Shown: piece by piece, positions 338-16,567 of the stretch | Layout of the letters: each line of letters starts with the position of its first letter | How positions within the stretch are numbered: the first letter of the stretch is position 1 | Assembly: GCF_903915725.1 (NCBI RefSeq) | Contig: NZ_CAIWTY010000105.1 | Coordinates: forward strand, 1-64,000 | Origin: an uncultured Rhodopila sp. | GTDB taxonomy: Bacteria; Pseudomonadota; Alphaproteobacteria; Acetobacterales; Acetobacteraceae | Direction: 5' to 3' | DNA: 64,000 bases | Notes under the pieces: generated by a model | The model's input: only the letters and a program-made list of their open reading frames with translations | Database searches by the model: none | Told to the model about the DNA's origin: nothing | Position numbers and translations under genes: made by a program

Positions 338-353
338 GGGGTGAAATCACCCC
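338..353. promoter_or_regulatory. Perfect palindrome, candidate activator-binding (UAS) site
   Basis: GGGGTGA (338-344), AA, TCACCCC (347-353) is a perfect 7-2-7 inverted repeat. It lies 59 bp upstream of the sigma-54 -24 element, that is about 85-100 bp upstream of the expected transcription start. This is within the usual distance for enhancer sites bound by Fis-type HTH domains of sigma-54 activators. That the activator at 22179-23183 binds it is inference; only one clear copy is seen. Confidence 0.45.
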
Positions 354-412: not shown

Positions 413-429
413 TTGGCGCGGCCTTTGCT
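413..429 (+). promoter_or_regulatory. Sigma-54 (-24/-12) promoter of the eCIS operon
   Basis: TTGGCGCGGCCTTTGCT matches the sigma-54 consensus YTGGCACGRNNNTTGCW at 16 of 17 positions; the only mismatch is G for A at 418. The invariant GG (415-416) and GC (427-428) are separated by exactly 10 bases, as RpoN requires. Transcription would start near 440, about 50 bases before the first gene at 493. A sigma-54 activator gene at the far end of the locus makes a chance match less likely. No computed score is available. Confidence 0.75.
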
Positions 430-492: not shown

Positions 493-726
493 ATGATCGA
501 AGACCTTATCGCGCACTACATCGCCACCCATCCGCATGCCGCGGATACGGTGGAGGGCATCTGCAATTGGTGGGTCGCGCCCGATCTGCCCGATGTGTTT
601 TGCGCCGAGGTTCAGGTCGCCGTGGACCACCTGGTCGCTCGCGGGACTTTGGCCCAGTCCGCCCTCCCTGAGGGAACCTTGTTCTTTGCCTCAGTGACCT
701 CGAAGAACGGAAACAGTAACTATTAG
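493..726 (+). CDS. Small winged-helix-like protein, first gene of the eCIS operon
   Basis: The 77-residue protein has no signal peptide or membrane segment. Its predicted layout, helix (residues 1-12), HPHAADTVEGICNWW, helix, then VDHLVARGTL followed by a short beta pair, resembles a minimal winged helix. I recall similar small proteins at the head of phage-tail-like clusters, but their role is not established. It sits about 50 bases downstream of the predicted sigma-54 start, and the sheath gene follows 12 bases after its stop, so it is the first cistron. The start has an A-rich AAAAAAGG upstream. It could be an operon-specific regulator or an assembly adaptor; the sequence does not decide. 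Confidence 0.65.
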   Translation: MIEDLIAHYIATHPHAADTVEGICNWWVAPDLPDVFCAEVQVAVDHLVARGTLAQSALPEGTLFFASVTSKNGNSNY

Positions 727-738
727 AAGGAACTCCAA

Positions 739-2304
739 ATGCCCGTTCTCGCGACCTACCCCGGCGTCTACATCCAGGAATTGCCCAGCGGCGTCCGCTC
801 GATCGTCGGCGTATCGACGTCGCTGACGGCGTTCATCGGCCGGGCCTTGCGCGGACCGCTGAACACGCCGACGGCCGTGAACAGTTATGCGGATTTCAAT
901 CGGATTTTCGGCGGTTTGTGGGCGACCAGCGCGCTCGGCTATTCGGTCGCGCAGTTCTTCAGCAACGGCGGATCGCAGGCGCTGATCGTCCGCGTCTATA
1001 ACGGCACCGGCGGCGCTGCCACGGCCACGCTGGCGAATGGCGGCACCGGCATTGTCCTGGCGGCGGCAAATCCCGGCGTCTGGGGCAGCAAGCTGACGGC
1101 TGCCGTCACGGCCGTGAGCCCGGCCTCGACGACCACGTTCAATCTGACGCTGACGGACAGCGGCGGGGCCGGCGGTACGACGACCGAGACCTATTTCAAT
1201 CTCTCGGTCGATCCAGCCAGCCCGAAATTCGTCGGCCAGGTGTTGGCGCAGCAATCGCAGCTTGCCGTCACCACCACGACTTTCTCGTCATCGTCGTTGC
1301 TCGCGATACCAACCGCGCAGTCGGTGCCGTTCACCGGGGGCGGCGACGGCAGCGACATCGGCGACGCACAGGTTTCCGGCAGCGGCCTGGCTTCGCTGCA
1401 TCAGGGACTCTGGGCGTTGGACAAGGCGCCGATTTTCAATCTGCTCGTCATCCCGCCCTACGCGCGGCCGCCGAGCACGGCGACATACGATGTCGGCGAG
1501 GCGACCTGGAATGCCGCTGTCGGATATGCGCAATCGCGGCGGGCCTTCGTCATCATCGACCCGCCGAGTTCCTGGACGCCGTCCGCGGCCGCTGCCGATG
1601 CCTTGAGCATGGAAACCAGCGTCCTCGGAGGATCCCAGTACAGCAGTTATGCGGCGATCTACTATCCGTATCTGCTGGCGCCGGATCCGCTGATCAACAA
1701 CTTGCTCGCCAGTTTCGCGCCGAGCGGAACGCTCGCCGGGATCTATGCCTATACCGACGCTCAGCGAGGCGTGTGGAAGGCGCCGGCCGGCATCGATGCA
1801 ACGCTGTCGGGCGCCGTGGGCCTGACCACCAGCGGCGCAACGACGCCGGTCACGGTGACGGACAGCGACAGCGCCGCGCTCAATCCCCTCGGGGTGAACT
1901 GCCTGCGCAGCTTCCCGGTTATCGGCAACGTGGTCTGGGGTGCGCGCACGATGGCCGGTGCGGATGCGCTGGAATCGCAATGGAAATACATACCTATCCG
2001 GCGGCTTGCGAACTACATCGAACAAAGCCTGTTCCAGGGCACGCAATGGGTGGTGTTCGAGCCTAATGCCGAACCGCTCTGGGCACAGATCCGGCTTGAT
2101 GTCGGCGCCTTCATGCAGACCCTGTTCGTGCAGGGCGCGTTCCAGGGAACCACGCCGTCGCAGGCTTACTTCGTCAACTGCGACAGCACGACGACCACGC
2201 AGACCGACATCGAGAACGGCATCGTCAACATCGTTGTCGGGTTCGCGCCGCTGTACCCGGCGGAATTCGTCATCATCTCGATCCAGCAGATTTCCCCGTC
2301 CTAG
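739..2304 (+). CDS. Contractile tail sheath protein (Afp2-4/Pvc2-4-like)
   Basis: The 521-residue sheath subunit forms the contractile outer cylinder that drives the inner tube through a target envelope. The N-terminus TYPGVYIQELPSGVRSIVG followed by TAFIGRA is the diagnostic sheath start, and the C-terminal third (WVVFEPNAEPLWAQIRLDV, then MQTLFVQGAFQG and YFVNCDS) is the conserved FI-like sheath domain. The length fits the family. A strong AAGGAA ribosome site lies at 727-732. The central Ser/Thr/Gly-rich part (about residues 90-250) is the variable surface domain. It is the only sheath gene in the locus; Afp and PVC clusters carry several, so this particle should have a homogeneous sheath. 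Confidence 0.95.
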   Translation: MPVLATYPGVYIQELPSGVRSIVGVSTSLTAFIGRALRGPLNTPTAVNSYADFNRIFGGLWATSALGYSVAQFFSNGGSQALIVRVYNGTGGAATATLANGGTGIVLAAANPGVWGSKLTAAVTAVSPASTTTFNLTLTDSGGAGGTTTETYFNLSVDPASPKFVGQVLAQQSQLAVTTTTFSSSSLLAIPTAQSVPFTGGGDGSDIGDAQVSGSGLASLHQGLWALDKAPIFNLLVIPPYARPPSTATYDVGEATWNAAVGYAQSRRAFVIIDPPSSWTPSAAAADALSMETSVLGGSQYSSYAAIYYPYLLAPDPLINNLLASFAPSGTLAGIYAYTDAQRGVWKAPAGIDATLSGAVGLTTSGATTPVTVTDSDSAALNPLGVNCLRSFPVIGNVVWGARTMAGADALESQWKYIPIRRLANYIEQSLFQGTQWVVFEPNAEPLWAQIRLDVGAFMQTLFVQGAFQGTTPSQAYFVNCDSTTTTQTDIENGIVNIVVGFAPLYPAEFVIISIQQISPS

Positions 2305-2322: not shown

Positions 2323-2844
2323 ATGGCCGAGTTCACTGTAAACCCAACTCGTTTCGACCCGTATAAGAATTTCAAATTCCGGCTGAAATGGGACGGCCAC
2401 TACGTGGCGGGACTGTCGAAGTGCGGCGCGCTCAAGCGCTCAACCGAGGTGGTCGAGCACCGCGAAGGCGGCGACCCGTCCACATCGCGGAAGTCCCCAG
2501 GCCGCACCAAGTACGAGGCGATCACGCTGGAACGCGGCGTCACCCACGACACCGACTTCGAAGCCTGGGCCAACAAGGTCTGGCACTATGGCGCCAAGCT
2601 CGGCGCCGAAGTATCGCTGAAGGATTTCCGCAAGAACCTGACGCTGGAATTTTATAACGAAGCCGGTCAACTGGCGCTGGCCTACAAGATCTATCGCGCC
2701 TGGGTGTCGGAATTCCAGGCGCTGCCGGACCTCGACGCCAATGCCAACGCTGTCGCCATCCAGCACATCAAGCTGGAGAACGAGGGTTGGGAACGCGACC
2801 TGACCGTCCCCGAGCCCAGCGAACCGAGTTTCGTGGCGCTTTAG
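2323..2844 (+). CDS. Inner tube protein (Afp1/5, gp19-like)
   Basis: The 173-residue protein builds the rigid hexameric inner tube inside the sheath. The N-terminus has the tube signature NPTRFDPYKNFKFRLKWDG, followed by HREGGDPSTSRKSPGRTKYEAITLERG, a charged strand-loop-strand segment common to Hcp/gp19-type tube proteins of eCIS. The C-terminal IYRAWVSEFQALPDLDANAN and IQHIKLENEGWERD are also typical. The start follows an AGGAG site at about 2310. It follows the sheath gene by 18 bases. Only one tube gene is visible; Afp and PVC use a second (Afp5-like) protein to start the tube on the hub, so here one protein may do both jobs. Confidence 0.93.
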   Translation: MAEFTVNPTRFDPYKNFKFRLKWDGHYVAGLSKCGALKRSTEVVEHREGGDPSTSRKSPGRTKYEAITLERGVTHDTDFEAWANKVWHYGAKLGAEVSLKDFRKNLTLEFYNEAGQLALAYKIYRAWVSEFQALPDLDANANAVAIQHIKLENEGWERDLTVPEPSEPSFVAL

Positions 2845-2858
2845 GAACTGACAAAGAA

Positions 2859-3554
2859 ATGGTCGTGGCCATGCGCTCACCGGGCGACGCGGCGCTGCTG
2901 GACATCTGGGAACAGGGTCAGGCGCGGGGTCCCGTCGCGCGCACGAAGCTGCTGCTTGGCGCCGCGCTGCCCGAACTGGACGACGCCGAGCGGGCAGCGC
3001 TCGCGGTCAGCGCCGCCGACATCGCGTTGCTGCGGCTACGTGGCGCGATCTTCGGCGGGCGGCTGCCGGCCGAGACGACCTGCCCCGCCTGCGCCGAGGT
3101 GCTGGAATTCGAACTCGATGCCGCGGCGCTGATCCATGGCATCGCCAAGCGGGAGCCGGACGCGCCGGGCGGCGAGTGTGACTTCCGGGAACCGGCCATC
3201 GGCGACCTGGAGGCCATTGCCGGCATCGCCGATCCTGATGCCGCCATGCACCGATTGGCAAGCCTGTGCCGCCGGGCACCCGACGCATCGCCAAACGGCG
3301 CCGAGATCGAACGGATCGATGCGCTGTATGGTCAGACCGCCATACGCCTGCGTCTCGACTGCGCCGCCTGCGGCAACACCTGGCACGAGGTTTTTGATGT
3401 CGCCGCCTACCTCTGGCAGGAGGTCGCGCGGCGCGCCGGCGCCCTGCTGGACGAGATCCACATCCTCGCCGCGGCCTATGGCTGGTCCGAGGCGCAAATC
3501 CTGGCGTTGAGCGAGACCCGCCGGACCGCCTACCTGCAACGGTGCGGCGCGTGA
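2859..3554 (+). CDS. gp26-like baseplate chaperone with zinc ribbon
   Basis: The 231-residue protein resembles the T4 gp26/baseplate-hub assembly chaperone proteins found after the tube gene in many eCIS and phage-tail clusters. Two CxxC pairs (C75/C78 in TCPAC and C168/C171 in CAAC) probably bind zinc. The C-terminal HILAAAYGWSEAQILALS and the following RRTAYLQ are the recurring family ending. I chose ATG 2859, just after an AGGAACT site and clear of the tube gene; GTG/ATG starts further upstream would overlap that gene. A second in-frame ATG lies at 2871. Function is inferred from family and position. Confidence 0.75.
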   Translation: MVVAMRSPGDAALLDIWEQGQARGPVARTKLLLGAALPELDDAERAALAVSAADIALLRLRGAIFGGRLPAETTCPACAEVLEFELDAAALIHGIAKREPDAPGGECDFREPAIGDLEAIAGIADPDAAMHRLASLCRRAPDASPNGAEIERIDALYGQTAIRLRLDCAACGNTWHEVFDVAAYLWQEVARRAGALLDEIHILAAAYGWSEAQILALSETRRTAYLQRCGA

Positions 3555-4255
3555 GCCTCTATCTGCAAGACCTGGTGGCGCGCGCCCGCCCCGGGCAGCC
3601 GGCGATACGCCCGCCCCGAACGCCGCGCTGGCTGCCGCCGGAAGCCGCCGCGGCGGAGCCGTCCGCGCCGGTTGCGACCCGCCCTGCGCCCCCGGGCGAG
3701 CCGCCGGCCGCGGTCGCGCCCGTTGCGATGCCGCGGGAACCGCTTTTCCCCCGGGGACCGGAGCCGGCCCACGCGTTGCCGCCCGCGGCAGCGCTGCGCG
3801 AGGCGCCGGTTGTGCCGGAGCCGCTGGTCGCGGACGCGCGGCCGCCGAACCCAAGGCAGACGGAAACCCGCCAGAGCGCAATGCCCGCGCCGGTTCATGA
3901 GGCCGCCCCGATAGTCGTGCCGGTCCATGAGCCCGCCCCGATGTCCGCGGCGGCCGCCGTCCCGCACCCCGCCAGCGCACCCGCGCCCGAGGCGGCCCCG
4001 ACGGTCGCGACCGTCATCGCGCGGCTCGTCGAGACCGCCATCAGGCCAGCCGCCCCGCAACCCGAAGCCGCACGGGCTCGGCAACCGGATACGCAGGCGG
4101 CCGAATCCGAGGCCGCCACGTATATCCATATCGGCCGCGTCGAGCTCCACGCAGCGCCGCCCGCTGTCACCGTCCAGCGCGCGTCCCCGAAACCGGCCCA
4201 TCAGCACATGTCGCTCGATGAATACCTGCGGCGCCGCAACGGCCGGCCGCAATGA
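3551..4255 (+). CDS. Pro/Ala-rich eCIS protein with conserved C-terminal tail
   Basis: GTG 3551 overlaps the preceding TGA (GTGA), giving about 234 residues. The middle 180 residues are Pro/Ala/Glu-rich and predicted disordered. The ends are conserved in type: an N-terminal SLYLQDLVARAR helix and a C-terminal TYIHIGRVELHA strand followed by HMSLDEYLRRR. The same strand plus SLDDYL-type ending occurs in proteins placed just before the DUF4255 cap gene in other eCIS loci (family knowledge). The layout suggests a flexible linker tethering two assembly parts, perhaps the cap and the ATPase. The next gene overlaps its stop (ATGA). Confidence 0.7.
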   Translation: MSLYLQDLVARARPGQPAIRPPRTPRWLPPEAAAAEPSAPVATRPAPPGEPPAAVAPVAMPREPLFPRGPEPAHALPPAAALREAPVVPEPLVADARPPNPRQTETRQSAMPAPVHEAAPIVVPVHEPAPMSAAAAVPHPASAPAPEAAPTVATVIARLVETAIRPAAPQPEAARARQPDTQAAESEAATYIHIGRVELHAAPPAVTVQRASPKPAHQHMSLDEYLRRRNGRPQ

Positions 4256-5556
4256 GCAATGCGCTCGCCATCGCCGGCGTCACCGCCGTGATCAAGGACC
4301 TGCTTGACGACGGCATGATCGACCATGCCGTCACCGATACGCTTGGGCAGGGGGTCACCGTCTCGGCCATCGCGCCCGACGAGATCGAACTCGGGACCGA
4401 CAAACAGCCTCGGCTCAATCTGTTTCTGTATCAGGTCACACCGAACATCGCGTGGCGGAATGCCGGGCTACCCTCCTGCGACTCCAACGGCCGGCGCACC
4501 GGCAACCCCCCGCTGGCGCTGGATCTGCACTACATGCTGACCGCCTACGGGGCGCTCGACCTGCAGGCGGAAGTGCTTCTGGGCTACGCCATGCTGCTGC
4601 TGCACCAGACGCCGGTGCTGCCGCGCGCCGCCATCCGCAAGTCGCTGAACCCACCAACGCCCCCGGTCACCGGCAGCCTGCTGCCAGCGGTCTACAAGGC
4701 GTTGCAGGCGTCCTCCCTCGCCGATCAGCTCGAGCAGATCAAGATCACGCCGGAGGTGATGAATACGGAGGAGCTGTCGAAGCTGTGGACGGCGATTCAA
4801 ACGCATTACCGGCCAACCGCGACCTATCTCGTGACCGTTGTGCTGATCCAGCCGACGGCTACCACCAGCGCAGCGCTGCCGGTGCTGTCGCGCGGGCCGC
4901 GGGACCCGGTGACCAATCTGGAAACCGGACCGACAGTGATCGCCACCATGCGGTCGCCCGGCCCGGTGATCTCGTCGTTTGTGTACGCTAACGGTCAGAA
5001 CTCGGCCGAGCTCGGCGATGCGGTCGTGGTGAACGGCCAGAATCTCGCCGGCAACGGCCAGACCCTGGTGCTGGCGAATCCGCTGCGCGGCGTCAACGTT
5101 TCGGTGACCACGCCGAGCAACGTCAGCGCCACCAGCCTGACCTTCACGCTACCATCCGACCCCGCCTCCTGCCCGGCGGGAACCTATACGGCGAGCGTGC
5201 AACTGACGCAGGGCGCCGATCCGTCCGTGCTGGTAAGCAATCAGCAGCCGCTCATGATCGCGCCGAAAATCACGGCGCTGCCGGCCACCGCAACGCGCGA
5301 CGCCAGCGGCGGCCTGACGCTGACGCCAACCTGCACACCGCAGTTGCAGCCGAACCAGACTGCATCGCTGATTCTGGGAGACATCCAGGTCTCGGCCGCG
5401 CCGATAACCGCGGCGACGGCGACGCCCGGGTTCACGTTCACCGCGCTGCCGCCCGGGAAGTACTGGGTAAGGTTGCGCATAGATAACGCCGACAGCCACT
5501 TTATCAACTTCGGTCCCCCGCCGGTGTTCGCCGGTCCGCAGATCGTGGTGTCATGA
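4252..5556 (+). CDS. DUF4255 tail cap/terminator protein (Afp16/Pvc16-like)
   Basis: The 434-residue protein has an N-terminal DUF4255 domain (about residues 1-195), recognised by VTAVIKDLLDDGM, LNLFLYQVTPN, LALDLHYMLTAYG and LGYAMLLLHQTPVL. In Afp/PVC this domain forms the hexameric cap that ends tube growth and fixes particle length. Residues about 230-434 look like two Ig/IPT-type beta domains (VISSFVYANGQNSAELGDAVVV, then PKITALPATAT), a common addition in this family. Start ATG 4252 overlaps the upstream stop and the gene overlaps the ATPase gene by 4 bases, so translation is likely coupled. Confidence 0.88.
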   Translation: MSNALAIAGVTAVIKDLLDDGMIDHAVTDTLGQGVTVSAIAPDEIELGTDKQPRLNLFLYQVTPNIAWRNAGLPSCDSNGRRTGNPPLALDLHYMLTAYGALDLQAEVLLGYAMLLLHQTPVLPRAAIRKSLNPPTPPVTGSLLPAVYKALQASSLADQLEQIKITPEVMNTEELSKLWTAIQTHYRPTATYLVTVVLIQPTATTSAALPVLSRGPRDPVTNLETGPTVIATMRSPGPVISSFVYANGQNSAELGDAVVVNGQNLAGNGQTLVLANPLRGVNVSVTTPSNVSATSLTFTLPSDPASCPAGTYTASVQLTQGADPSVLVSNQQPLMIAPKITALPATATRDASGGLTLTPTCTPQLQPNQTASLILGDIQVSAAPITAATATPGFTFTALPPGKYWVRLRIDNADSHFINFGPPPVFAGPQIVVS

Positions 5557-7457
5557 TGGACGACTCACCCCACACTGCCCGCTGGGCCGAGGCCAACCAG
5601 CGCCTTCTGGTGCAGGAACTGAACGCGTTGGCCGCTCGCCTGACGCCCGGCGAGGTGCCACCAGCCGCCGACAACCTGGTCGAACTGGCGCCGTCCGCGC
5701 TCGATCTGTTGGCCGAGGTGTTCGGGCTTTCGGGCTTCGAACGCGCGATCCTTCTGCTGTGCGCCGGCATCGAGATGGACAGCCGCTTCGCCCGCTGCTG
5801 CGCCACCGCGGGCAGCCAGGGCGCCACCTTCGCGCTCGCGCTCGCGACACTCGACGCGCCGCATTGGAGCGCATTGGCGCCGGACCGTCCGCTCCGCCGC
5901 TGGCGCATGATCGATATCGGCGCGGGCCAGTCGCTGACCACGTCGCCGCTGCGCATCGATGAGCGCATCCTGCACTTCCTGGCTGGCCTCAACGTCCCGG
6001 ACGCCCGGGTCGCGCCGCTGGTGACCCGTCACGAGCCGCCGGTGATCATGGCGGATGCGCATCAGGCGTTGGCGGAGCGCCTGGCCGCCGTCTGGCTCCG
6101 GCAGCCGGGCCCGAAACATGTCCTGCATCTGTCCGGCGAGGATGGCTTGGGCCGGGAGGACATCGCCGCGTCCATCGCCAGCGGTCTGGGTCTCGACCTG
6201 TATGCGATCGCAGCGGAAAACCTGCCCGCCGCGCCGGGCGACCTCGACACCTTCGCCACCCTTTGGCAGCGCGAGGCGGTGCTGCTGCCGGCGGCGCTGC
6301 TGATCGACTGCGGCGAGAACCCCGCCTCGCCGGCGGTCACGGCGCTCAGCGACAAACTCTCCACGCCGCTGTTCCTTGGCGCGCGCGACCCGCAGCGGCT
6401 GCATCGCGTGATGCAGGTGCACGACGTCCGCAAGCCCGGCGCCACGGAACAGAAACGACTCTGGCGGCAGGCCCTGGCAATCGACACCGCGCCGTTCGAC
6501 GACGTGCTGGACGGCATCGCGTCGCAATACCGGCTGAGTACGCGGGCGATCCTGCTGGCGGGCCAGGCGGTGCGCGACAGTGTCGCGTCCGGCACGCCAG
6601 CGGGCGATGCGCTACGGCAGGCCTGCCGCGGATCGGGGCACCGCCGCCTGGATGAACTCGCCACCCGCATCGAGCCGGGTGCGGTCTGGGACGATCTGAT
6701 CCTGCCGGACCCGCAACGCAACGTGTTGCGCCAGATCGCCGCGCAGGTGCGGCAACGCCGGCGGGTGTATGACGAGTGGGGTTTCGGCAAGCGCCACGAG
6801 CGCGGGCTGGGCGTCGCCGCGCTGTTCAGCGGCGAGAGCGGCACCGGCAAGACGCTGGCCGCCGAAGTGCTGGCGTCCGAACTGCATCTGGATTTGTACC
6901 GCATCGATCTGTCGGCCGTCATCAGCAAGTATATCGGCGAAAGCGAGAAGAACCTGCGCCGCGTCTTCGACGCCGCCGAGGACACCGGTGCGATCCTGCT
7001 GTTTGACGAAGCCGACGCGTTGTTCGGCAAGCGCAGCGACGTCAAGGACAGCCACGACCGTTACGCGAACATCGAGGTCAGCTACCTGCTGCAACGGATG
7101 GAGGCGTATCGCGGCCTGGCGATTCTGACGACCAACCTGAAATCCGCGCTGGACCCGGCGTTCCAGCGCCGGCTCCGGTTCATCGTGCAATTCCCGTTCC
7201 CCGACGCGTCGCAGCGCGAGGCGATCTGGCGGCGCGCGTTCCCGCCGGATGCGCCGCTCGACACCCTGGATTTCCCAAGGCTCGCGCAGCTCGCCGTCGC
7301 CGGTGGCGGCGTGCGCAACATCTCGCTGAACGCCGCCTTCCTGGCGGCGGAGGCGGGCGAAAAACTCTCGATGCGGCATCTGCTGGCGGCGGCCCACGCC
7401 GATAGGTCGAAGCAGGATCGGCAGGTCGCCGGCCACGAGACCAGGGGGTGGTTATGA
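5553..7457 (+). CDS. AAA+ ATPase of the eCIS (Afp15/Pvc15-like)
   Basis: The 634-residue protein has a helical N-terminal half (1-390) with a degenerate nucleotide-binding region near 190-300, then a canonical AAA+ module. Walker A GESGTGKT is at 427-434 and Walker B ILLFDEAD at 481-488, followed by an arginine-finger region (DPAFQRRLRFIVQFPFPD). This ATPase is a hallmark of eCIS and is absent from T6SS and phages; it is thought to assist assembly or cargo loading and is usually not in the final particle. ATG 5553 overlaps the cap gene stop. The downstream small gene overlaps its stop. Confidence 0.93.
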   Translation: MMDDSPHTARWAEANQRLLVQELNALAARLTPGEVPPAADNLVELAPSALDLLAEVFGLSGFERAILLLCAGIEMDSRFARCCATAGSQGATFALALATLDAPHWSALAPDRPLRRWRMIDIGAGQSLTTSPLRIDERILHFLAGLNVPDARVAPLVTRHEPPVIMADAHQALAERLAAVWLRQPGPKHVLHLSGEDGLGREDIAASIASGLGLDLYAIAAENLPAAPGDLDTFATLWQREAVLLPAALLIDCGENPASPAVTALSDKLSTPLFLGARDPQRLHRVMQVHDVRKPGATEQKRLWRQALAIDTAPFDDVLDGIASQYRLSTRAILLAGQAVRDSVASGTPAGDALRQACRGSGHRRLDELATRIEPGAVWDDLILPDPQRNVLRQIAAQVRQRRRVYDEWGFGKRHERGLGVAALFSGESGTGKTLAAEVLASELHLDLYRIDLSAVISKYIGESEKNLRRVFDAAEDTGAILLFDEADALFGKRSDVKDSHDRYANIEVSYLLQRMEAYRGLAILTTNLKSALDPAFQRRLRFIVQFPFPDASQREAIWRRAFPPDAPLDTLDFPRLAQLAVAGGGVRNISLNAAFLAAEAGEKLSMRHLLAAAHADRSKQDRQVAGHETRGWL

Positions 7458-7705: not shown

Positions 7706-7773
7706 CGGGGCCGCGCAAACCGGACGGTGGCGGCAAGGTCTTGCCAATCCCGCTTCCGAAACCGTTCAACTGA
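7702..7773 (+). CDS. Possible 23-residue ORF between eCIS genes
   Basis: GTG 7702 overlaps the previous TGA (GTGA), exactly the coupling used elsewhere in this operon. The frame runs 23 codons and stops one base before the next ATG (TGACATG). The peptide is Gly/Pro/Lys-rich with no recognisable fold. It may be a translation-coupling minicistron that carries ribosomes over the gap rather than a functional protein. Nothing beyond position and overlap supports it. Confidence 0.25.
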   Translation: MTGPRKPDGGGKVLPIPLPKPFN

Positions 7774-7774
7774 C

Positions 7775-8440
7775 ATGACCGCGACACCTTTCCCAGGCTC
7801 TCCCAAACTTGTTCGTGGCGGCATTGTGCAGGTTGACCCGACCTCGGGCGCCGTGCTGCGTGTCATTACGCTGCAATATAATCCCGACACGCTGACGCGC
7901 ACGCTGCAGGTCCAGGGCATCGGCGACAACGGCGAACGATCGGAGGTGCTGCGGCTGAAAGGCCCCGCCGTCGAGACCATCAAGGTCGAAGCCGAACTGG
8001 ACGCGACGGACCAGCTTGAGGACCCGGGCAACAATCTGAACACGGTGCAGTTCGGCCTGCACCCGCGGATCGCGGCCCTGGAGTCGTTGCTGAACCCCAC
8101 CGTATCCGATCTGATCGACCAGGACAGCCTGGCGCAGAGCGGCACGCTGGAAATCTCGCCGGCGGAAGCCCCGCTGGCGCTGTTCGTCTGGAGCGCCCAG
8201 CGCGTCCTGCCGGTGCGGGTCACTGAATTCAGCGTTACGGAAGAGGCGTTCGACGCCAAACTGAACCCGATCCGCGCCAAGATCAGCCTCGGCCTGCGCG
8301 TGCTGACGGTCGAAGACCTTCCGTTCACGCATCGCGGCAGCACGTTGTTCCTGAGCTACCTGCAACGCAAGCAGACGCTCGCGGCGCTGGCGCCGTCTGC
8401 GGCGCTCGACGCCCTCGGCATCGGAGGACTCCCATTATGA
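7775..8440 (+). CDS. Afp7-like tube/baseplate protein, core domain
   Basis: The 221-residue protein matches the architecture of the N-terminal domain of Afp7/Pvc7-type proteins: VRGGIVQVDP, LQYNPDTLTRTL, VETIKVEAELDATDQLE, then LALFVWSAQRVLPVRVTEFS and NPIRAKISLGLRVLTVEDL. In that family the domain joins the tube to the baseplate and is usually fused to LysM; here LysM is a separate gene directly downstream. I chose ATG 7775 over an upstream GTG (7727) because the extension has no family-like sequence. The stop overlaps the LysM gene start. Confidence 0.75.
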   Translation: MTATPFPGSPKLVRGGIVQVDPTSGAVLRVITLQYNPDTLTRTLQVQGIGDNGERSEVLRLKGPAVETIKVEAELDATDQLEDPGNNLNTVQFGLHPRIAALESLLNPTVSDLIDQDSLAQSGTLEISPAEAPLALFVWSAQRVLPVRVTEFSVTEEAFDAKLNPIRAKISLGLRVLTVEDLPFTHRGSTLFLSYLQRKQTLAALAPSAALDALGIGGLPL

Positions 8441-8812: not shown

Positions 8813-9937
8813 ATGCTGGAAGGGATCAACCTCAGTCTGCTGATCGGGCCGGGCATCCCGGTGCCGGCGCCGGCTGAATTGATCTACGCGCTGGATTCGA
8901 TCCAGGTGACCAGCGGCGCGCAAACCAGCGGTTTCCAACTGGCCTTCAAGATCGGCAGGACATCATTGCTGCAGACCCTGCTGCCGGCCGGCTACTTCGA
9001 CCCGATCGTTACTAGAGTAATCATCATCGTCACGATGAACGGCTTGCCCAACGTGCTGATGGACGGCGTGGTCACGCGGCAGGAACTGACGCCGAGCAAC
9101 GAGGTCGGCAAGTCCACGCTGACCATCACCGGCGAGGACCTGAGCCGCATGATGGACCTGATCGAGATGCCGTTCATGCGCTATCCGTGCATGCCGATCA
9201 TCGCCAGGGTCTACGCCATTCTCGCCAAGTATGCCGTGCTCGGCATCGCGCCGGTGGCGATCCCGCCGATCATTCCGGACTTTCCCGATCCGCTGGAGGA
9301 AGTGCCGACACAGACAGGTACCGACCTTGCGTATATCCGCCAAATGGCGAGCCAGTCGGGCTATGTCTTCTACGTCGAGCCGGGACCGTTGCCCGGAGGC
9401 AACATCGCCTATTTCGGACCCGATATCCGGATCCCCGTGCCGCAACCGGCGCTGAATGTGAACATGGATGCGCAGACCAACGTCGAGTCGCTCAGTTTCT
9501 CGTTCGACGGCTTGGCAAAAAAGATAACGGTCGTGACGATATTCGACCCGGTCACCGGCAAGATTCCGATCCCGGTACCGGTGCCGAACCTCGATCCGCT
9601 GCGGCCGCCAATGGGCGTGAAGTTGCCGCTGCCCGCCAAGCTGGAGTTCGCCGAGGGCATGGGCAGCCTGAAGCTTTCACCCGCGCTGAACCAGATCATC
9701 GGGATCATGTTCGGCGCCAACGATTCGATCACGGCGTCGGGCGCGCTGGACGTGATGCGCTACGGCCAGGCGCTGCGGTCCCGCATGATGGTCGGCGTGC
9801 GCGGCGCCGGCCTGACGTATGACGGGCTGTATTACGTCAACAGCGTGACCCACAACCTCAAACGCGGCGAGTACAAGCAGAATTTCAGCCTGTCGCGCGA
9901 CGGCCAGATTTCCAACACGCCAATGGTGATGCCATGA
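8813..9937 (+). CDS. gp27/gpD-like baseplate hub protein
   Basis: The 374-residue protein resembles the hub domain of VgrG, T4 gp27 and P2 gpD. Features include FQLAFKIGR near residue 43, TGEDLSRMMDL near residue 100, a Pro-rich loop (VAIPPIIPDFPDP), SGYVFYVEP, and a C-terminal GLYYVNSVTHNLKRGEYKQNFSLSRDG, which is the classic hub ending. The start ATG 8813 is one base after the LysM stop. In Afp/PVC the hub and spike are one protein (Afp8); here they are split into this gene and the next, as in phages. Confidence 0.88.
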   Translation: MLEGINLSLLIGPGIPVPAPAELIYALDSIQVTSGAQTSGFQLAFKIGRTSLLQTLLPAGYFDPIVTRVIIIVTMNGLPNVLMDGVVTRQELTPSNEVGKSTLTITGEDLSRMMDLIEMPFMRYPCMPIIARVYAILAKYAVLGIAPVAIPPIIPDFPDPLEEVPTQTGTDLAYIRQMASQSGYVFYVEPGPLPGGNIAYFGPDIRIPVPQPALNVNMDAQTNVESLSFSFDGLAKKITVVTIFDPVTGKIPIPVPVPNLDPLRPPMGVKLPLPAKLEFAEGMGSLKLSPALNQIIGIMFGANDSITASGALDVMRYGQALRSRMMVGVRGAGLTYDGLYYVNSVTHNLKRGEYKQNFSLSRDGQISNTPMVMP

Positions 9938-10482
9938 CAACTTCGACATCGACTTCGCAAGCCCGCACCTTCTACGGCAAGTACCGCGGCACGGTGATCA
10001 ACAATGTCGATCCGCTGCTGAAAGGACGCCTGCTTTTGGAAGTGCCCGATGTCGTCGGCCTGGTCCCATCCAGTTGGGCGGAACCCTGCGTGCCCCTGGC
10101 CGGGCCGACCGGCATGCCGATGGGTGTCTATATGGTTCCCCCAATCGGTGCCGGCGTCTGGGTGGAGTTTGAGCGCGGCGATCCGTCGTTGCCGATCTGG
10201 GTGGGGTGCCGCTGGGGCCTGCCAACGGACGTCCCGACCCTGGCGCTGCTCGGCCTGCCGGTGTCGCCGAATATCTGCATGCAGACCATGGGACAGAATA
10301 TGGTCATGATCAGCGACATGCCGCCGACGCCGCTGACCGGCGGCATCATCCTGAAAAGCCTGACAGGTGCGTCGCTGGTGGTGAACGACGCTGGCATCTT
10401 CATCCAGAACGGCAAGGGCGCCTCGATCACCATGGTTGGCCCGGCGGTCGAGATCAATCTCGGCGCGCTGACCGTGATCTGA
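9934..10482 (+). CDS. gp5/gpV-like OB-fold spike protein
   Basis: The 182-residue central spike protein has an N-terminal OB fold (residues 10-100: YRGTVINNVDPLLKGRLLLE, MVPPIGAGVWVEFERGD, PIWVGCRWG). A C-terminal beta-prism region follows (ITMVGPAVEINLGALTVI with short repeating strands from about 130). Trimers of such proteins form the spike under the hub. The start ATG overlaps the hub stop, and hub plus spike together equal one Afp8/VgrG. A PAAR-like tip gene follows 13 bases later. Confidence 0.9.
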   Translation: MTTSTSTSQARTFYGKYRGTVINNVDPLLKGRLLLEVPDVVGLVPSSWAEPCVPLAGPTGMPMGVYMVPPIGAGVWVEFERGDPSLPIWVGCRWGLPTDVPTLALLGLPVSPNICMQTMGQNMVMISDMPPTPLTGGIILKSLTGASLVVNDAGIFIQNGKGASITMVGPAVEINLGALTVI

Positions 10483-10838: not shown

Positions 10839-11207
10839 ATGAACCTGGCCTATCCGTACCAGTTCGGACCGAACGGCCGCACCGGACAATCCAGCGACCC
10901 TCAGCACATCCGCGACCTGATCGAGCAGGTGCTGTTCACCGCGCCCGGTGAGCGCGTGATGCACCCCGATTTCGGGAGTGGCGCCGCGCGCCTGGTGTTC
11001 GCGCCGAACTCGGTGGAACTGGCCGGCGCCACGCAGATGCTGGTGCAGGCGGCGCTTCAGCAATGGCTGAACACGCTGATCGTGGTGCAGGCCGTCAGCG
11101 TCCAGGCGGCCGACGCCAGCCTGTCGATCATCGTGCAATACGCCATTCGCAGCAGCGGCGACGTGGTTCAGCAAACTTTCGCCCGCGCCTTGGGAAGCAG
11201 CCAATGA
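10839..11207 (+). CDS. gp25-like baseplate wedge protein (Afp9)
   Basis: The 122-residue protein is of the GPW/gp25 family, which starts sheath polymerisation from the baseplate. Diagnostic parts are DPQHIRDLIEQVLFTAPGER, MHPDFGSGAARLVF and a C-terminal strand (LSIIVQYAIRSSGDVVQQTF). The EPR-like loop is replaced by GERVMHPDFG, a typical eCIS variant. A minicistron of 8 codons (10816-10842) bridges from the PAAR stop to this start. The stop overlaps the next ATG. Confidence 0.92.
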   Translation: MNLAYPYQFGPNGRTGQSSDPQHIRDLIEQVLFTAPGERVMHPDFGSGAARLVFAPNSVELAGATQMLVQAALQQWLNTLIVVQAVSVQAADASLSIIVQYAIRSSGDVVQQTFARALGSSQ

Positions 11208-13801
11208 GCTACAGTTGCTGCGACACGCTGCGACGCGACTTGGTAGCCGCCAGCCCCACGCTGAACGGCATAGACTATCTCGAGGTGATCGACAGCGACC
11301 TGCCGTCCGGCGACCCGCTGCGGCAGCAGACCTTGCTGCTGCACTGCCTGAAGCCGCTGCCGGCGGGATTCAGCCAGGCGAACGTGCGGATCAGCGGCGG
11401 CGAGCGGATCACCAACGTGGGCGTGGTGTGGGCTGCCGTCGCCACACCGGTGCCGGCGCAGTTCTCCATGACCGGCGAAGCCGCGACGGCGGCGATCGTC
11501 GGAGCCGAACCGGCACCGGCGACAATCCTGGTGGTCCGCACCACGACTTCGGGGGATTTTTCCACCTACACGCTGACACTGGTCGCCTCGGCGCTGGATG
11601 CCTCACCCCCGGCCGGGTTCGATCCGCGGCTGAGTTCGGTGGATTTCTGTTTCAAGGTGGATTGCCCGTCCGACTTCGATTGCCAGCCAAACCCGTCCTG
11701 CCCGCCCGAAATCAGCACGCCGCCCGCCATCAACTACCTGGCGAAGGACTTCACCACCTTCACCACGTTGATGTCCGACCGCATGTCGCAGCTCGTGCCG
11801 GATTGGCAACAGGGCAGCCTGGCGGATTACGGCATGGCGCTGATCGAGCTGCTTGCCTACGCGGGTGACCAACTGAGCTACCAGCAGGATGCGATCGCCA
11901 CCGAGGCCTATTTGGAAACGGCGCGCCGCCGCATCTCGCTGCGCCGCCTGGCGGTGCTCGTGGACTACGCGATGCACGATGGCTGCAACGCCCGCGCCTG
12001 GGTGCAGATCCAGATCTCGCAGCCGCAATTCACCCTGACCGCCGGCAAGACGCAGTTCCTGACGCGTTGCGCGGGGTTCCCGGCCGGGCTGCCCATCGGC
12101 TCCCGGTTGCTGGCGGATGCCATGCTCACCGGCCCGCTGATCTTCGAGCCGCTGGAAACGCCGACGCTGTACCAGGCGCACAACAAGATATCGTTCTATA
12201 CCTGGAGCGACAAGAACTGCTGCCTGCCCGCCGGGTCTACCGCCGCCACGCTGGCCGGCACCTACCCGAACCTGACCGCGGGCGACACGTTGCTGTTCGA
12301 GGAAGTCATGGGCCCGCGCACCGGAGCCGCCGGCGACGCCGACCCGGCGCACCGGCAGGTGGTCAGGCTGACGTCGGTGCTTCCGATCGCGCCCGCCGTC
12401 CTGACCGATCCGCTGACCGGTGCGGCAATCACGCAAATCGCCTGGGCGCAGGCCGATGCGCTGACGTTTCCGCTGTGCGTGTCCAGCACAACCGACGCGG
12501 CGCACGGCGGCAAGGCGCTGATCGATGTGAGCGTCGCCCGCGGCAACATTGTCCTGATCGACCACGGTCAGACCGTCAGCGGCGAATCCCTCGGACAAAT
12601 GCCGGACAGCACGCTTTTCCTGGCGCCCGCCGGCCACCCGACGCCGTGCACCGCCGCGGCCCCGGTGCCGGTGCCGGCCCGCTACAACCCGACGCTGGCG
12701 CTGGCGCCCCTCACTCAGCAAGCCCGGGTCCAGGTGGCGTCCGGCACGCCGGGATCGACGGCGACGGTCAGCAAGGCTTTCGATCCCTCGGCAGCCGCCA
12801 CCGACGCGATGAACTGGAGCCCGGACGAAGCGATCCCTTCGCTGACCCTGACGGGCACGTTGAACGGCACGCCGGCGGTCTGGCGGGCACAGCGCAGCTT
12901 GCTGGAAAGCGGCGCCGGCGCGACCGACTTCGTTGCCGAGGTGGACGACAACGGCGCCGCCCATCTGCGCTTCGGCGACAATGAGCACGGCATGCGGCCG
13001 CTGGCGGGGACGGCGTTCACCGCGACCTATCGCGTCGGTAACGGTTCGGCCGGCAACGCGGGCGCGGAAACGATCGTGCACATGGTGGCCTCCGCCGGCG
13101 ACCTGGCCAATATCGCCAACCTGCGCAATCCGCTGGCGGCGGAAGGCGGCGTCGATATGGAAACCGCCGACAGCGTCCGCCGCAATGCGCCGCAAGCGTT
13201 CCGCACCCAGGAACGCGCGGTCACCCCGGCCGACTACGCGGTGATCGCGGAACGCCGGACCGGCGTCCTTCAGGCCGCCGCGGACCTGCGCTGGAGCGGC
13301 AGTTGGTACACCGCCTTCATCACCGTCGATCCCGATGACGGTGTCGCTCCCGGCCCGCTGAAGACCGCACTGAAGCCGTTCGTCGACACCTACCGCATGG
13401 CCGGCCACGATCTTGAGTTCAACGACCCGATCTATGTCTCGCTGGAAATCGAGATGCATATCTGCGTCCAGCCCGACTATTTCCGATCCGACGTCGAGAC
13501 CGGATTGCTCGCCGCGCTTGGCAATAAACGTCTGCCCAACGGCCGGACCGGGCTGTTCTATCCGGACAATTTCGGCTTCGGCCAGACTGTGTATCTCAGT
13601 CCGATTTACGCCGCGGCACATGCCGTGCCGGGTGTGCAGTCCGTGCTGATCACGACGTTCCAGCGTCAGGGCACCCCGGACCCGAGCTATCTGATCAACG
13701 GCGAGCTACCGCTGGCGCCGCTGGAAATCGCGCGTCTCGATAACGATCGCAACTTCCCGGAACACGGCGTGCTCCGGCTCGACCTCAATGGCGGCAAGTA
13801 G
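11204..13801 (+). CDS. Large baseplate wedge protein 1 (gpJ/gp47-type, Afp11-like)
   Basis: The 865-residue protein is the first of two tandem large wedge proteins. Near residues 180-270 it has PAINYLAKDFTTFTTLMSDR and LIELLAYAGDQLSYQQDAI, and from about 580 a gp47-like module: HLRFGDNEHG, RRNAPQAFRTQERAVTPADYA and YTAFITVDPDDG. Such proteins (T4 gp6/P2 gpJ equivalents) form the iris of the baseplate that triggers contraction. ATG 11204 overlaps the gp25 stop; longer in-frame extensions reach back inside gp25 and were rejected. The stop is 9 bases before the next gene. Confidence 0.88.
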   Translation: MSYSCCDTLRRDLVAASPTLNGIDYLEVIDSDLPSGDPLRQQTLLLHCLKPLPAGFSQANVRISGGERITNVGVVWAAVATPVPAQFSMTGEAATAAIVGAEPAPATILVVRTTTSGDFSTYTLTLVASALDASPPAGFDPRLSSVDFCFKVDCPSDFDCQPNPSCPPEISTPPAINYLAKDFTTFTTLMSDRMSQLVPDWQQGSLADYGMALIELLAYAGDQLSYQQDAIATEAYLETARRRISLRRLAVLVDYAMHDGCNARAWVQIQISQPQFTLTAGKTQFLTRCAGFPAGLPIGSRLLADAMLTGPLIFEPLETPTLYQAHNKISFYTWSDKNCCLPAGSTAATLAGTYPNLTAGDTLLFEEVMGPRTGAAGDADPAHRQVVRLTSVLPIAPAVLTDPLTGAAITQIAWAQADALTFPLCVSSTTDAAHGGKALIDVSVARGNIVLIDHGQTVSGESLGQMPDSTLFLAPAGHPTPCTAAAPVPVPARYNPTLALAPLTQQARVQVASGTPGSTATVSKAFDPSAAATDAMNWSPDEAIPSLTLTGTLNGTPAVWRAQRSLLESGAGATDFVAEVDDNGAAHLRFGDNEHGMRPLAGTAFTATYRVGNGSAGNAGAETIVHMVASAGDLANIANLRNPLAAEGGVDMETADSVRRNAPQAFRTQERAVTPADYAVIAERRTGVLQAAADLRWSGSWYTAFITVDPDDGVAPGPLKTALKPFVDTYRMAGHDLEFNDPIYVSLEIEMHICVQPDYFRSDVETGLLAALGNKRLPNGRTGLFYPDNFGFGQTVYLSPIYAAAHAVPGVQSVLITTFQRQGTPDPSYLINGELPLAPLEIARLDNDRNFPEHGVLRLDLNGGK

Positions 13802-13810
13802 AGGCATGTC

Positions 13811-16567
13811 ATGAGCGCCACCACCGATTGCGGTTGTTGCACAGGCGTTACCGACGAAACGCCGGCCGGAAAATCCAACCCGCCCGGGCAGCCGGCAATC
13901 GGCTACCGCGCCGGGACCTGGGCGACGTTCCGCGCGACGATGCTGTCGCGCCTGTCCAGTACCGATTATCCCGCGCTGGCGCCGCTGACGACGCGCGACG
14001 ATGGAGACTACACGTTGGCGCTGTGCGACTCGTTCGCGATGCTGGCCGACGTGCTGACCTTCTACCAGGAGCGCATCGCCAACGAGACCTATCTGCGCAC
14101 CGCGACGCAGCGCAATTCGGTCGTCCAATTGGCCGGCCTGATTGGCTACCAGCCTTCGCCGGGCGTTGCCGCGAGCGTCAGCCTCGCGTTCACCCTGCAG
14201 AGCGCACCCGGTTTGCCCGCGCAAGCGACACAGCCCTCGGTCGTGCCGATCGGCACGCGGGCGCAAAGCGTGGCGGATCCGGGCCAGACCGCGCAAACCT
14301 TCGAAACCGTCGGCGCGATCACCGCCCGGGTCGAGTGGAATGCCATTCACGCCCAAACCGCGGTCGCGTATCCACCCGCGCCCGGGATGACGGATCTTTA
14401 CCTTGCGGGCACCGCCACGCAGCTCAATCCGGGCGACGCCATCGCCATTGTCAGCGGCGAGCGCGCGATGGGAGCGAGGGGCGCGCACTGGTGTGTGCGC
14501 TGGATCGATAGCGTCACGACTGATGCCGCCAATAGTGTAACGCGCATCACCTGGTCGACGCCGCTTGTGGCGCCCCGGATACATCCATCGACCCGCGGCA
14601 CGCAGGTCTTCGCGCTTCGCCAGCGGGCGTCGCTGTTCGGCAGCGGAGCACCGGACCCGCGCCTGATGAAGGTGACCGACACGGCGCTGGTGCATCACGA
14701 CGGCACGTGGCGACATTATCATATCGACACGACTGGCGTCGCGGTCGATCTCGACTCCGCATACCCGAAGATTGTGCAAGGAAGCTGGGTGGTGCTCGCG
14801 AACGCCGTCAACGGTGCCGCCGAACTGTACAATGTTACTGCCGTCACGCAGTTGTCGCGCACCGCCTTCGGACTCAGCGCCAAGCTCACCCGCCTGTCCT
14901 TCGACACCGCCGCCGGGCTCGGATCCTTCACCCTGCCGGAAACCCAAGTACTGGCGCAGAGCGAACTGCTAACGGTGGCGCCGCGCCCGCTGCCTTACCC
15001 GGTCTTCGGCAGCACGTTGGTCCTGGGCGTTGCGGACGGCAACCTCGTGCCCGGCCAATTTCTCGCGGTGAGCGGCAAGCGGCAACGCGTGATGATTGGC
15101 CCCGACCCGACCGGGATTAGTTTCGCCGATGATCCGGGCCGCATCCCGACCCCCGGCGATTCCTTCCAGATGCTGGCCGCGCCAATCCGGATGGTTGGCG
15201 GCACGCCGCAGTCGCTGACGCCCGTCGAGCTCGACCCGGCGCGGGCCTCCGCGCTGTCCGGCGACCTGACCTGGAACCTGCGGGACCGCAACGGCCAGAC
15301 CGTTTCAGTGACAGCGCCCGCCGGGTCGCTGGTCCTGCAGCCGGCGCTGACGGCCGATCCGACGGTCAGCGAGGCCGCCGCTATCGTCAGCGGCGCCGAC
15401 GGCATCGTCCTGAACCTCGATACAACGACGGTGTCGCTGACCGCGATACTGGCGAACTGCTATGACCGGTCTACCGTGGCGGTGAACGCCAATGTGGCGC
15501 CGGCCACGGCGGGCCAGACAACGACCGAGGTCGGCGGCAGCGGCAACGCCAGCCAGCAAAATCAAAGCTTCACCCTGAAGCAGTCGCCGCTGACCTACGT
15601 GCTCGACGCGAACAGGCCGACAGGACGGTCGTCGACGCTGTCGGTTGCCGTCAACGGCCTGACCTGGTCCGAGGTCCCGGCGCTGTACGGGGCGAAACCC
15701 ACCGGCCGAGTCTATTCGCTGAGTCAGGCCGATGACGGCACCACCACCGTGCGGTTCGGCGATGGCGTCAATGGCGCGCTGCTGCCGACGGCACAGAACA
15801 ATGTGCGCTTCGCCTACCGGCAAGGACTGGGCGCGGCCGGCAACCTGCGTGCAAGCCAGATCTCGCTGCTGCTGACCCGGCCTTTGGGCGTCACCGGCGT
15901 GACCAACCCGGCACCCTCCGCCGGCGGTCAAGATCCCGAAACGATCGGCGATGCGCGCAGCAACGCGCCGCTGCATGTCATGACGCTGGACCGTGCGGTC
16001 TCGACCCGGGACTATGCCGATTACGCCGCGACCTTCGCCGGGATCGCCAAGGCCTATTCGGTGTGGATCAGCGCCGGCCTGTCCCGCGGCGTCTACGTCA
16101 CCGTTGCCGGTCCGGGCGGCGAAACGTTTCAGCCAACCGATGCGACGATCGTCGCCCTGACAAAATCGCTGCGCGAGTACGGCGACGCGCTGCTGCCGTT
16201 GCAGGTGCAGTCCTTCGCCAACCCGACCTTCACGCTGTCCGCGACCGTCAAGGTCGCCGCCGATGCCGACGCGCCGACAGTGCTCGCCGGGGTGACCGCG
16301 GCGCTGCGGGCGGCCTACGGATTCGCCGCCCGGGAGTTCGGCCAGCCGGTGACCATCGACGGCGTGTATGCCGTGATCCAGGGCGTCACAGGGGTGGTCG
16401 CGTCCGATATCTCCCAGCTTTACCTGCTCTCGACCGGCCCGTCCGCCGCCGAACCGCAGGCCCGGCTGCTGGCCGCGCTTCCGGCGGTGCAGCCGGACGG
16501 CAGCGTCAATCCGGCGGCCCTGCTGACGCTCGATCCCGGTCCTATCACCCTGGGGTCCATGACATGA
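13811..16567 (+). CDS. Large baseplate wedge protein 2 (paralogue of wedge 1)
   Basis: The 918-residue protein shares the architecture of its neighbour: an early DSFAMLADVLTFYQERIANE segment, then a C-terminal gp47-like module (TVRFGDGVNGALLP, ARSNAPLHVMTLDRAVSTRDYAD, and a later GVTGVVASDISQLYL). A Cys-rich N-terminus (DCGCCTG) is also present. Matching domain order implies an old duplication that gives a wedge heterodimer. ATG 13811 was chosen; an ATG at 13805 stops at once. The next gene overlaps by 4 bases. Confidence 0.85.
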   Translation: MSATTDCGCCTGVTDETPAGKSNPPGQPAIGYRAGTWATFRATMLSRLSSTDYPALAPLTTRDDGDYTLALCDSFAMLADVLTFYQERIANETYLRTATQRNSVVQLAGLIGYQPSPGVAASVSLAFTLQSAPGLPAQATQPSVVPIGTRAQSVADPGQTAQTFETVGAITARVEWNAIHAQTAVAYPPAPGMTDLYLAGTATQLNPGDAIAIVSGERAMGARGAHWCVRWIDSVTTDAANSVTRITWSTPLVAPRIHPSTRGTQVFALRQRASLFGSGAPDPRLMKVTDTALVHHDGTWRHYHIDTTGVAVDLDSAYPKIVQGSWVVLANAVNGAAELYNVTAVTQLSRTAFGLSAKLTRLSFDTAAGLGSFTLPETQVLAQSELLTVAPRPLPYPVFGSTLVLGVADGNLVPGQFLAVSGKRQRVMIGPDPTGISFADDPGRIPTPGDSFQMLAAPIRMVGGTPQSLTPVELDPARASALSGDLTWNLRDRNGQTVSVTAPAGSLVLQPALTADPTVSEAAAIVSGADGIVLNLDTTTVSLTAILANCYDRSTVAVNANVAPATAGQTTTEVGGSGNASQQNQSFTLKQSPLTYVLDANRPTGRSSTLSVAVNGLTWSEVPALYGAKPTGRVYSLSQADDGTTTVRFGDGVNGALLPTAQNNVRFAYRQGLGAAGNLRASQISLLLTRPLGVTGVTNPAPSAGGQDPETIGDARSNAPLHVMTLDRAVSTRDYADYAATFAGIAKAYSVWISAGLSRGVYVTVAGPGGETFQPTDATIVALTKSLREYGDALLPLQVQSFANPTFTLSATVKVAADADAPTVLAGVTAALRAAYGFAAREFGQPVTIDGVYAVIQGVTGVVASDISQLYLLSTGPSAAEPQARLLAALPAVQPDGSVNPAALLTLDPGPITLGSMT

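Follow-up and report, generated by a model that had tools for sequence, protein, structure and literature searches.

A dedicated sigma-54 activator (EBP), encoded at the far end of the locus, very probably controls the eCIS operon at the start of the analysed DNA. In the reading that we prefer, with a probability of roughly 0.8, the element at 413-429 is the promoter of an operon that extends from P1 through sheath and tube to a DUF6519 gene, and this promoter would be opened by the EBP of the locus acting from an upstream enhancer palindrome. The window, meaning the whole stretch of 64,000 nucleotides that was analysed, is the start of contig C105 in a 6.7-Mb Rhodopila genome.

The eCIS operon and the activator gene of the locus

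The first gene of the operon (493..726, plus strand) encodes P1, a 77-aa winged-helix protein by AlphaFold2 prediction. It is followed on the same strand by the eCIS sheath (739..2304; PF17482, E 3.2e-9), the eCIS tube (2323..2844; PF06841, E 1.8e-44) and an unnamed eCIS gene (2859..3554) with no Pfam match, which takes the same place in related loci by tblastn. The plus strand continues with a Pvc16-like protein (4252..5556; PF14065, E 1.8e-48), an AAA ATPase that is Pvc15-like by place and domain (5553..7457; PF00004, E 2.1e-26, and PF22977), a CIS tube-like protein (7727..8440; PF19266, E 3.4e-4, below its cut-off), the spike base Phage_base_V (9934..10482; PF04717, E 2e-15), the gp25 baseplate wedge (10839..11207; PF04965, E 1.6e-16) and two baseplate J-like proteins, the former at 11204..13801 (start chosen; ORF listed from 11063; PF04865, E 2.6e-6) and the latter at 13811..16567 (PF04865, E 3.9e-6). 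The last operon gene, also on the plus strand, encodes a DUF6519 and beta-helix protein (18787..22182; PF20129, E 1.9e-39, and PF13229). In a published survey (PMC8213781), a locus counts as an eCIS when four or more core genes are linked and three or more different Pfam families are represented among them; the operon fits this definition with its genes for sheath, tube, Pvc16_N, AAA, spike base, gp25, baseplate J and DUF6519. Capsid and T6SS membrane genes were absent from the ORFs scanned, which were a part of all ORFs on a contig that starts at base 1, and no RNA family reached its gathering score in 1-25000.

The earlier note on this DNA had stated that a sensorless sigma-54 activator gene closes the locus. 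This was confirmed by Pfam, with the gene on the minus strand (22179..23183), tail to tail with the DUF6519 gene and with overlapping 3' ends. The 334-aa protein contains a sigma-54 interaction domain at residues 24-189 (PF00158, E 1e-60), an AAA lid at 195-261 (PF25601) and a C-terminal Fis-type HTH at 290-323 (PF02954, E 5.5e-6), while no Pfam domain was found before residue 24. The Walker A sequence GETGTGKE is present, and the sigma-54 contact loop reads GAFTDA, departing from the canonical GAFTGA. Against the PspF model the protein scored 243.9 bits, short of the cut-off of 443.55, and the cut-off was reached for none of the best 25 of 30 NCBIfam models. The Rhodopila genome encodes RpoN and 12 strong sigma-54 activator domains. 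The EBP gene is separated from an MFS transporter gene by ~1.3 kb (23184-24528), in which only short ORFs were seen.

The -24/-12 element at 413-429

The candidate sigma-54 promoter element on the plus strand at 413-429 reads TTGGCGCGGCCTTTGCT, with GG at 415-416, GC at 427-428 and a spacer of N10. The sigma-54 consensus is TTGGCACG-N4-TTGCW; the element agrees with it at 12/13 specified positions, the single departure being A to G. Counting the four N as well gives 16/17, the figure claimed in the earlier note, and the element was confirmed as the best such site in the window. The note had also placed it directly before the first eCIS gene: it does precede the operon, but the gene directly downstream is P1, which starts 63 nt on, and the sheath gene lies 309 nt away. 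A transcription start near 440 would be expected from an element at this position.

No other match with at most one mismatch occurs in the 64-kb window. Matches at three mismatches numbered 27 against 32 expected, so looser sigma-54 matches are meaningless. Simulation of 3 Mb of DNA with the dinucleotide composition of the window gave no site of 12/13 with both GG and GC. Across the 6.7-Mb genome, the exact pattern TTGGCRCG-N4-TTGCW, whose R was picked to admit the 413-429 site, occurs nine times; with up to two mismatches allowed, it has fewer matches than its reversed control (768 versus 905). An EBP gene lies within 15 kb of six of the eight remaining exact sites, and three of the eight precede ORFs that by eye resemble NifH, NifU and alcohol dehydrogenase. 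A chance match at 413-429 was rejected on the strength of this rarity, the simulation and the recurrence of the site before P1 elsewhere. Separately, a near-perfect sigma-54 site, TTGGCGCGGTCCTTGCT, was seen elsewhere in the Rhodopila genome (C106:295444-295460; L094:7445); a 419-aa ORF starts 81 nt downstream of it, close to the end of the contig.

Upstream palindromes

A palindrome with perfect 7-bp arms, GGGGTGAAATCACCCC, lies at 338..353 (no strand assigned), 59 nt before the -24 element, and has no other exact copy in the Rhodopila genome. By itself it is weak, because 27% of shuffles of the same stretch hold a palindrome with 7-bp arms; as an enhancer for the Rhodopila EBP it is nevertheless plausible. 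A second palindrome, GGCATTAATGCC, was observed beside it at 318-329; P1 or another regulator might bind there.

Upstream regions were compared for 13 loci (Rhodopila, G199, G324, L119, L120, L121, L122, L124, L140, L204, G906, G775 and G365); G960, which has no site, and G184 were left out of the count. Six exact copies of GGGTC-N6-GACCC were found in 4/13 regions (two in G199, two in G775 and one each in L119 and L120), 51-161 nt before the -24 element, where shuffles gave 0.01 with a maximum of 1. All 2.59 Mb compared, some stretches of which were counted twice, held 12 copies, 10 of them distinct. Perfect 5-N6-5 dyads of any sequence numbered 17 in the 13 regions, compared with 7.7 in shuffles (sd 2.8, maximum 17). 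GGGTC-N6-GACCC was rejected as the Rhodopila enhancer, as none occurs at up to two mismatches in the 412 nt upstream. The recognition helix of the Rhodopila EBP is KDRSTLNKLV, and an ERR-type helix is present in the four palindrome loci and in G184, where GGGTC-N6-GACCC stands 239 nt before the sheath.

Two further copies were observed outside this arrangement. One, in G324 (L074:8681-8696), lies downstream of P1, between it and the next gene. The other is an exact copy on Rhodopila contig C30 (L090:14821-14836), ~1 kb before a 13/13 sigma-54 site; this contig also carries another EBP gene.

EBP, P1 and eCIS loci in genomes of the order

Sheath matches at E ≤ 1e-10 were found in 66/395 genomes of the order, although many weak matches (26-29% identity) are probably phage sheaths; 33 genomes were taken forward from this search, and long stretches were compared in 22. 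The gene order of the window was found in G347, G152, G166, G287, G182 and others, where the stretches examined contained neither an EBP match nor P1.

The EBP query P0001 at E ≤ 1e-72 matched 6/395 genomes of the order, Rhodopila included, and in five of the six the EBP lies beside eCIS-type genes. A class-wide search with P0025 at E ≤ 1e-80 returned the Rhodopila genome alone among 385. The four other genomes with the EBP beside eCIS genes (in G324 an eCIS_core gene) differ in arrangement. In G365, which has no P1, the EBP is divergent from the first eCIS gene, and the site ATGGCATGCAACTTGCG (10/13) lies 47 nt before that gene. In G199 the EBP is convergent with an eCIS_core gene at the eCIS 3' end, and CTGGCCCGACCCTTGCA (11/13) precedes a P1 homologue. 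G324 carries CTGGCCCGCCGATTGCT (11/13) before a P1 homologue and eCIS genes, with its EBP on a separate contig, convergent with the eCIS_core gene. G184, again without P1, has an eCIS that seemingly spans two contigs, with a longer EBP at its 3' end and an 11/13 site lacking GG, GTTGCACGTTTCTTGCT, 95 nt before the sheath. The EBPs of Rhodopila, G365, G199, G324 and G184 all share a GA[FY]TDA loop. G037 was rejected as an orthologue, since its loop is GAFTGA and tblastn found no eCIS match in 38 kb.

The contrast set comprised 17 related eCIS loci in which the sheath start could be placed, all in genomes where neither this EBP nor P1 was found; for four of these genomes (G281, G353, G214 and G322) the absence of the EBP rests on genome searches. 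None of the 17 has a site of at least 11/13: within 420 nt upstream of the sheath, the highest GG-N10-GC score was 10/13 in one locus and at most 9 in the other 16. The earlier note had named absence of the motif from homologous loci as a finding that would count against its proposal. The motif is indeed absent from the nearest eCIS loci by sheath, which lack the EBP too, and a similar site recurs in most other P1 loci. The argument that the motif therefore has no function was rejected, since these nearest loci are also without P1.

The P1 family and its loci across phyla

The AlphaFold2 model of P1 has a mean pLDDT of 91. Rhodopila P1 gave no Pfam match at E ≤ 10, and its homologue in L120 gave weak Pfam matches below the cut-off; the family numbers 204 proteins at E ≤ 0.001. 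P1 shares the winged-helix fold with the Fur, MarR and Penicillinase-repressor regulators but shows no family-level sequence match to them, and the predicted fold is also similar to winged helices that are not regulators. P1 was found in 3/390 genomes of the order, with at most 13 candidates scored per genome, and the EBP is present in all three.

GAFTDA was read in 107 of the best 119 EBP homologues, the remaining 12 not being parsed. In a midpoint-rooted FastTree of 127 EBPs, all P1-linked or CIS-linked EBPs fall within one clade of 24 (support 0.82), which also includes the unlinked L123, the G906 EBP on its separate contig and eight database proteins of unknown context. Loops in this clade are mostly GA[FY]TDA, with GAFTGA in L121, L122 and L140 and GAYTNA in L204. 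L123 (Nitrosospira multiformis) was rejected as a further locus: although its EBP belongs to the clade, tblastn, the P1 model and ORF reading over 21 kb gave neither an eCIS match nor P1.

The named-genome scan was a sample of at least 80 loci, and P1 was found in 6 of 80 scanned loci among the matches listed. The EBP clade adjoins P1 in records from Rhodocyclaceae, Cupriavidus, Hydrogenophilales, Verrucomicrobia, Acidobacteriota and Nitrospira. Taxon labels may be incorrect for several loci that are MAG contigs. L119 (Rhodocyclaceae) and L122 (Verrucomicrobia) carry EBP, site, P1, sheath, tube and more eCIS genes on one strand, and the EBP stands directly before P1 and eCIS in L119, L122 and L204. 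In L120 (Hydrogenophilales), L121 (Acidobacteriota), L124 (Algicola MAG) and L140 (Nitrospira) the EBP is followed by P1. Plasmid pMTS1 of Cupriavidus sp. P-10 holds the EBP, P1 and eCIS genes and was the single record with a P1 match in the plasmid search, in which sheath matches occurred in nine records, eight of them without a P1 match. A 13/13 sigma-54 site in the opposite direction was also observed between EBP and P1 in L119 (3166-3182, minus strand), facing a small ORF.

A P1 profile searched against 388 genomes of the phylum matched G906, G775 and G960 besides Rhodopila. G906 has P1 and an 11/13 site before a multi-sheath eCIS, and no eCIS match lies beside its EBP. G775, G960 and L124 encode fused TssB-TssC, accompanied by TssF in G775 and G960 and by Hcp in L124, so the machine in these loci is a T6SS; in G960 a minus-strand ORF separates P1 and tssBC. 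P1-EBP pairs in L205, L206 and L124 were seen to adjoin T6SS clusters with TssB and TssC in one ORF.

Recurrence of the site before P1

For 12 P1 loci besides Rhodopila, the region 30-220 nt upstream of the conserved proline codon of P1 was searched for its best site. A -24/-12-like site of at least 9/13 was present in 10/12, with scores of 11 in G199, G324, L119, L121 and L207, 10 in L120 and L122, and 9 in L124, L140 and L204; L205 scored 7 and L206 had none. The Fisher test, which takes loci as independent, gave 1.1e-11 against shuffles and 1.5e-8 against random windows from the same loci, with test window and motif fixed after sites in several loci had been seen. Among the five loci less inspected beforehand (L121 and L204-L207), two score 11, one scores 9 and two fail. 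The sites in L140 and L204 are weak (p about 0.1), and an 11/13 site in L205 lies 155 nt before P1, just outside the tested window. Sites scoring at least 9 stand 86-120 nt from the proline codon, as compared to 102 nt in Rhodopila.

Proposed mechanism and alternatives

The earlier note had claimed an eCIS under a sigma-54 promoter with its own dedicated activator, and the comparison supports this core claim: EBP, site and P1 recur together, and no site of comparable quality was found in the 17 related loci without EBP and P1. P1 and the GAFTDA loop did not feature in the note. From the sequence we infer transcription from 413-429, binding by the EBP and an enhancer in Rhodopila. RNA polymerase with sigma-54 would wait at 413-429 until the EBP of the locus binds the upstream enhancer palindrome, for which 338-353 is the candidate; the bound EBP would then form a ring and open the promoter by ATP hydrolysis. 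With no sensor domain and a GAFTDA loop, the EBP would be gated through its amount or by a partner in trans; the note's idea that particle production is tied to activator level would thus be one of two options. The best candidate for such a partner, or for a feedback regulator, is P1, which would be the first product of the same promoter; as a conserved winged-helix protein opening the operon it could gate the activator. In compact loci the EBP is located just before the site and P1, whereas in Rhodopila and G199 it is convergent at the operon 3' end, as is probably also the case in G184 and G324. That the linkage is kept through such rearrangement suggests a dedicated pair.

The operon could instead be run from a sigma-70-type or other promoter, with the -24/-12 match accidental or minor and the EBP serving other targets. 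Most related eCIS loci of the order are without such a site and must be run otherwise, and the upstream DNA is limited to 412 nt by the start of the contig at base 1. This explanation is nonetheless improbable, as the 413-429 site is rare and its position matches that in other P1 loci; moreover, no sigma-70-like site was found in 1-760, although only 0.1 would be expected by chance and alphaproteobacterial promoters may escape the pattern. It is less probable still that sigma-54 drives the operon but is activated by another EBP of the genome, the EBP of the locus being a mere neighbour. Sensor-bearing EBPs do exist in the Rhodopila genome, the Rhodopila enhancer is a candidate, and the G906 EBP is unlinked to the G906 P1, yet the EBP clade is linked with eCIS or P1 in most loci examined, and within the order nearly all of the few genomes with the EBP have it beside eCIS-type genes.

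For P1, the odds that it acts as a regulator, either as partner or through feedback, are about even. An assembly or structural role in the particle would fit its position as first gene of a structural operon and the resemblance of its fold to winged helices without regulatory role. Such a role is considered unlikely given that P1 tracks the EBP and not the machine: it accompanies two eCIS architectures as well as T6SS, and was found in none of the eCIS loci without the EBP.

Relation to known systems

The preferred reading, an eCIS run by sigma-54 and the EBP of its own locus, resembles VasH / Sfa2 T6SS control in that a contractile injection machine is combined with sigma-54 and an EBP encoded in the cluster. 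VasH has an N-terminal sensor domain. The Rhodopila machine differs in being an eCIS, in having an EBP without an N-terminal sensor and with the loop GAFTDA, and in an operon that opens with P1; its cluster is not a T6SS, but the P1-linked relatives G775, G960 and L124 adjoin T6SS genes. PspF- and HrpS-like EBPs also combine an AAA+ domain and a Fis HTH without a sensor and depend on a partner in trans for their gating; P1 differs in having another fold. In Vibrio, Aeromonas and Pseudomonas, sigma-54 activates T6SS clusters together with an EBP of VasH / Sfa2 type from the same cluster, according to a published account (PMC10482370).

The contact-loop aspartate of the Rhodopila EBP stands at the same place as in NorR G266D, which is described as fully constitutive and active without signal in the available part of that study (PMC2941729). 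An aspartate in this loop can thus release an EBP from its sensor domain. NorR G266D is a laboratory variant of a sensor-bearing EBP, whereas GAFTDA is natural here, in a sensorless subclade. GAFTDA is listed among loop variants expected to keep activity in the accessible sections of another paper (PMC4641369); the available text on Dickeya VfmH, which also has GAFTDA, reports that sigma-54 was not found in a pull-down (PMC10714721).

Activation of eCIS genes is known for few systems. Regulator genes beside eCIS operons have been described too, namely GerE/LuxR-type, BTAD and RfaH in the available part of the eCIS survey, but these are not sigma-54 activators, and the word 'sigma' is absent from the main text of that survey (PMC8213781). 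The earlier note knew of no described eCIS with a dedicated sigma-54 activator, and none was found in text searches of an open-access library with few subscription papers and no preprints. If correct, the preferred reading would provide an eCIS with a defined switch consisting of sigma-54, one activator gene and one small DNA-binding protein, and would join eCIS and T6SS control in one evolutionary unit. The ~200 Pfam-less proteins of the P1 family gain a first context, and P1 together with the EBP clade could serve as a marker for finding sigma-54-run injection machines in genomes.

A broader and more tentative proposal, somewhat short of even odds, is that EBP, enhancer palindrome, -24/-12 promoter and P1 may form an exchangeable cassette across two eCIS architectures, T6SS and phyla, in which P1, as anti-activator or signal sensor, would gate in trans an EBP made constitutive by GAFTDA. 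In L120 (8455-10022) and L140 (9941-11403), no eCIS gene was recognised on the contig downstream of the EBP-P1 pair, and these are either orphan control sets or sets acting on a machine elsewhere.
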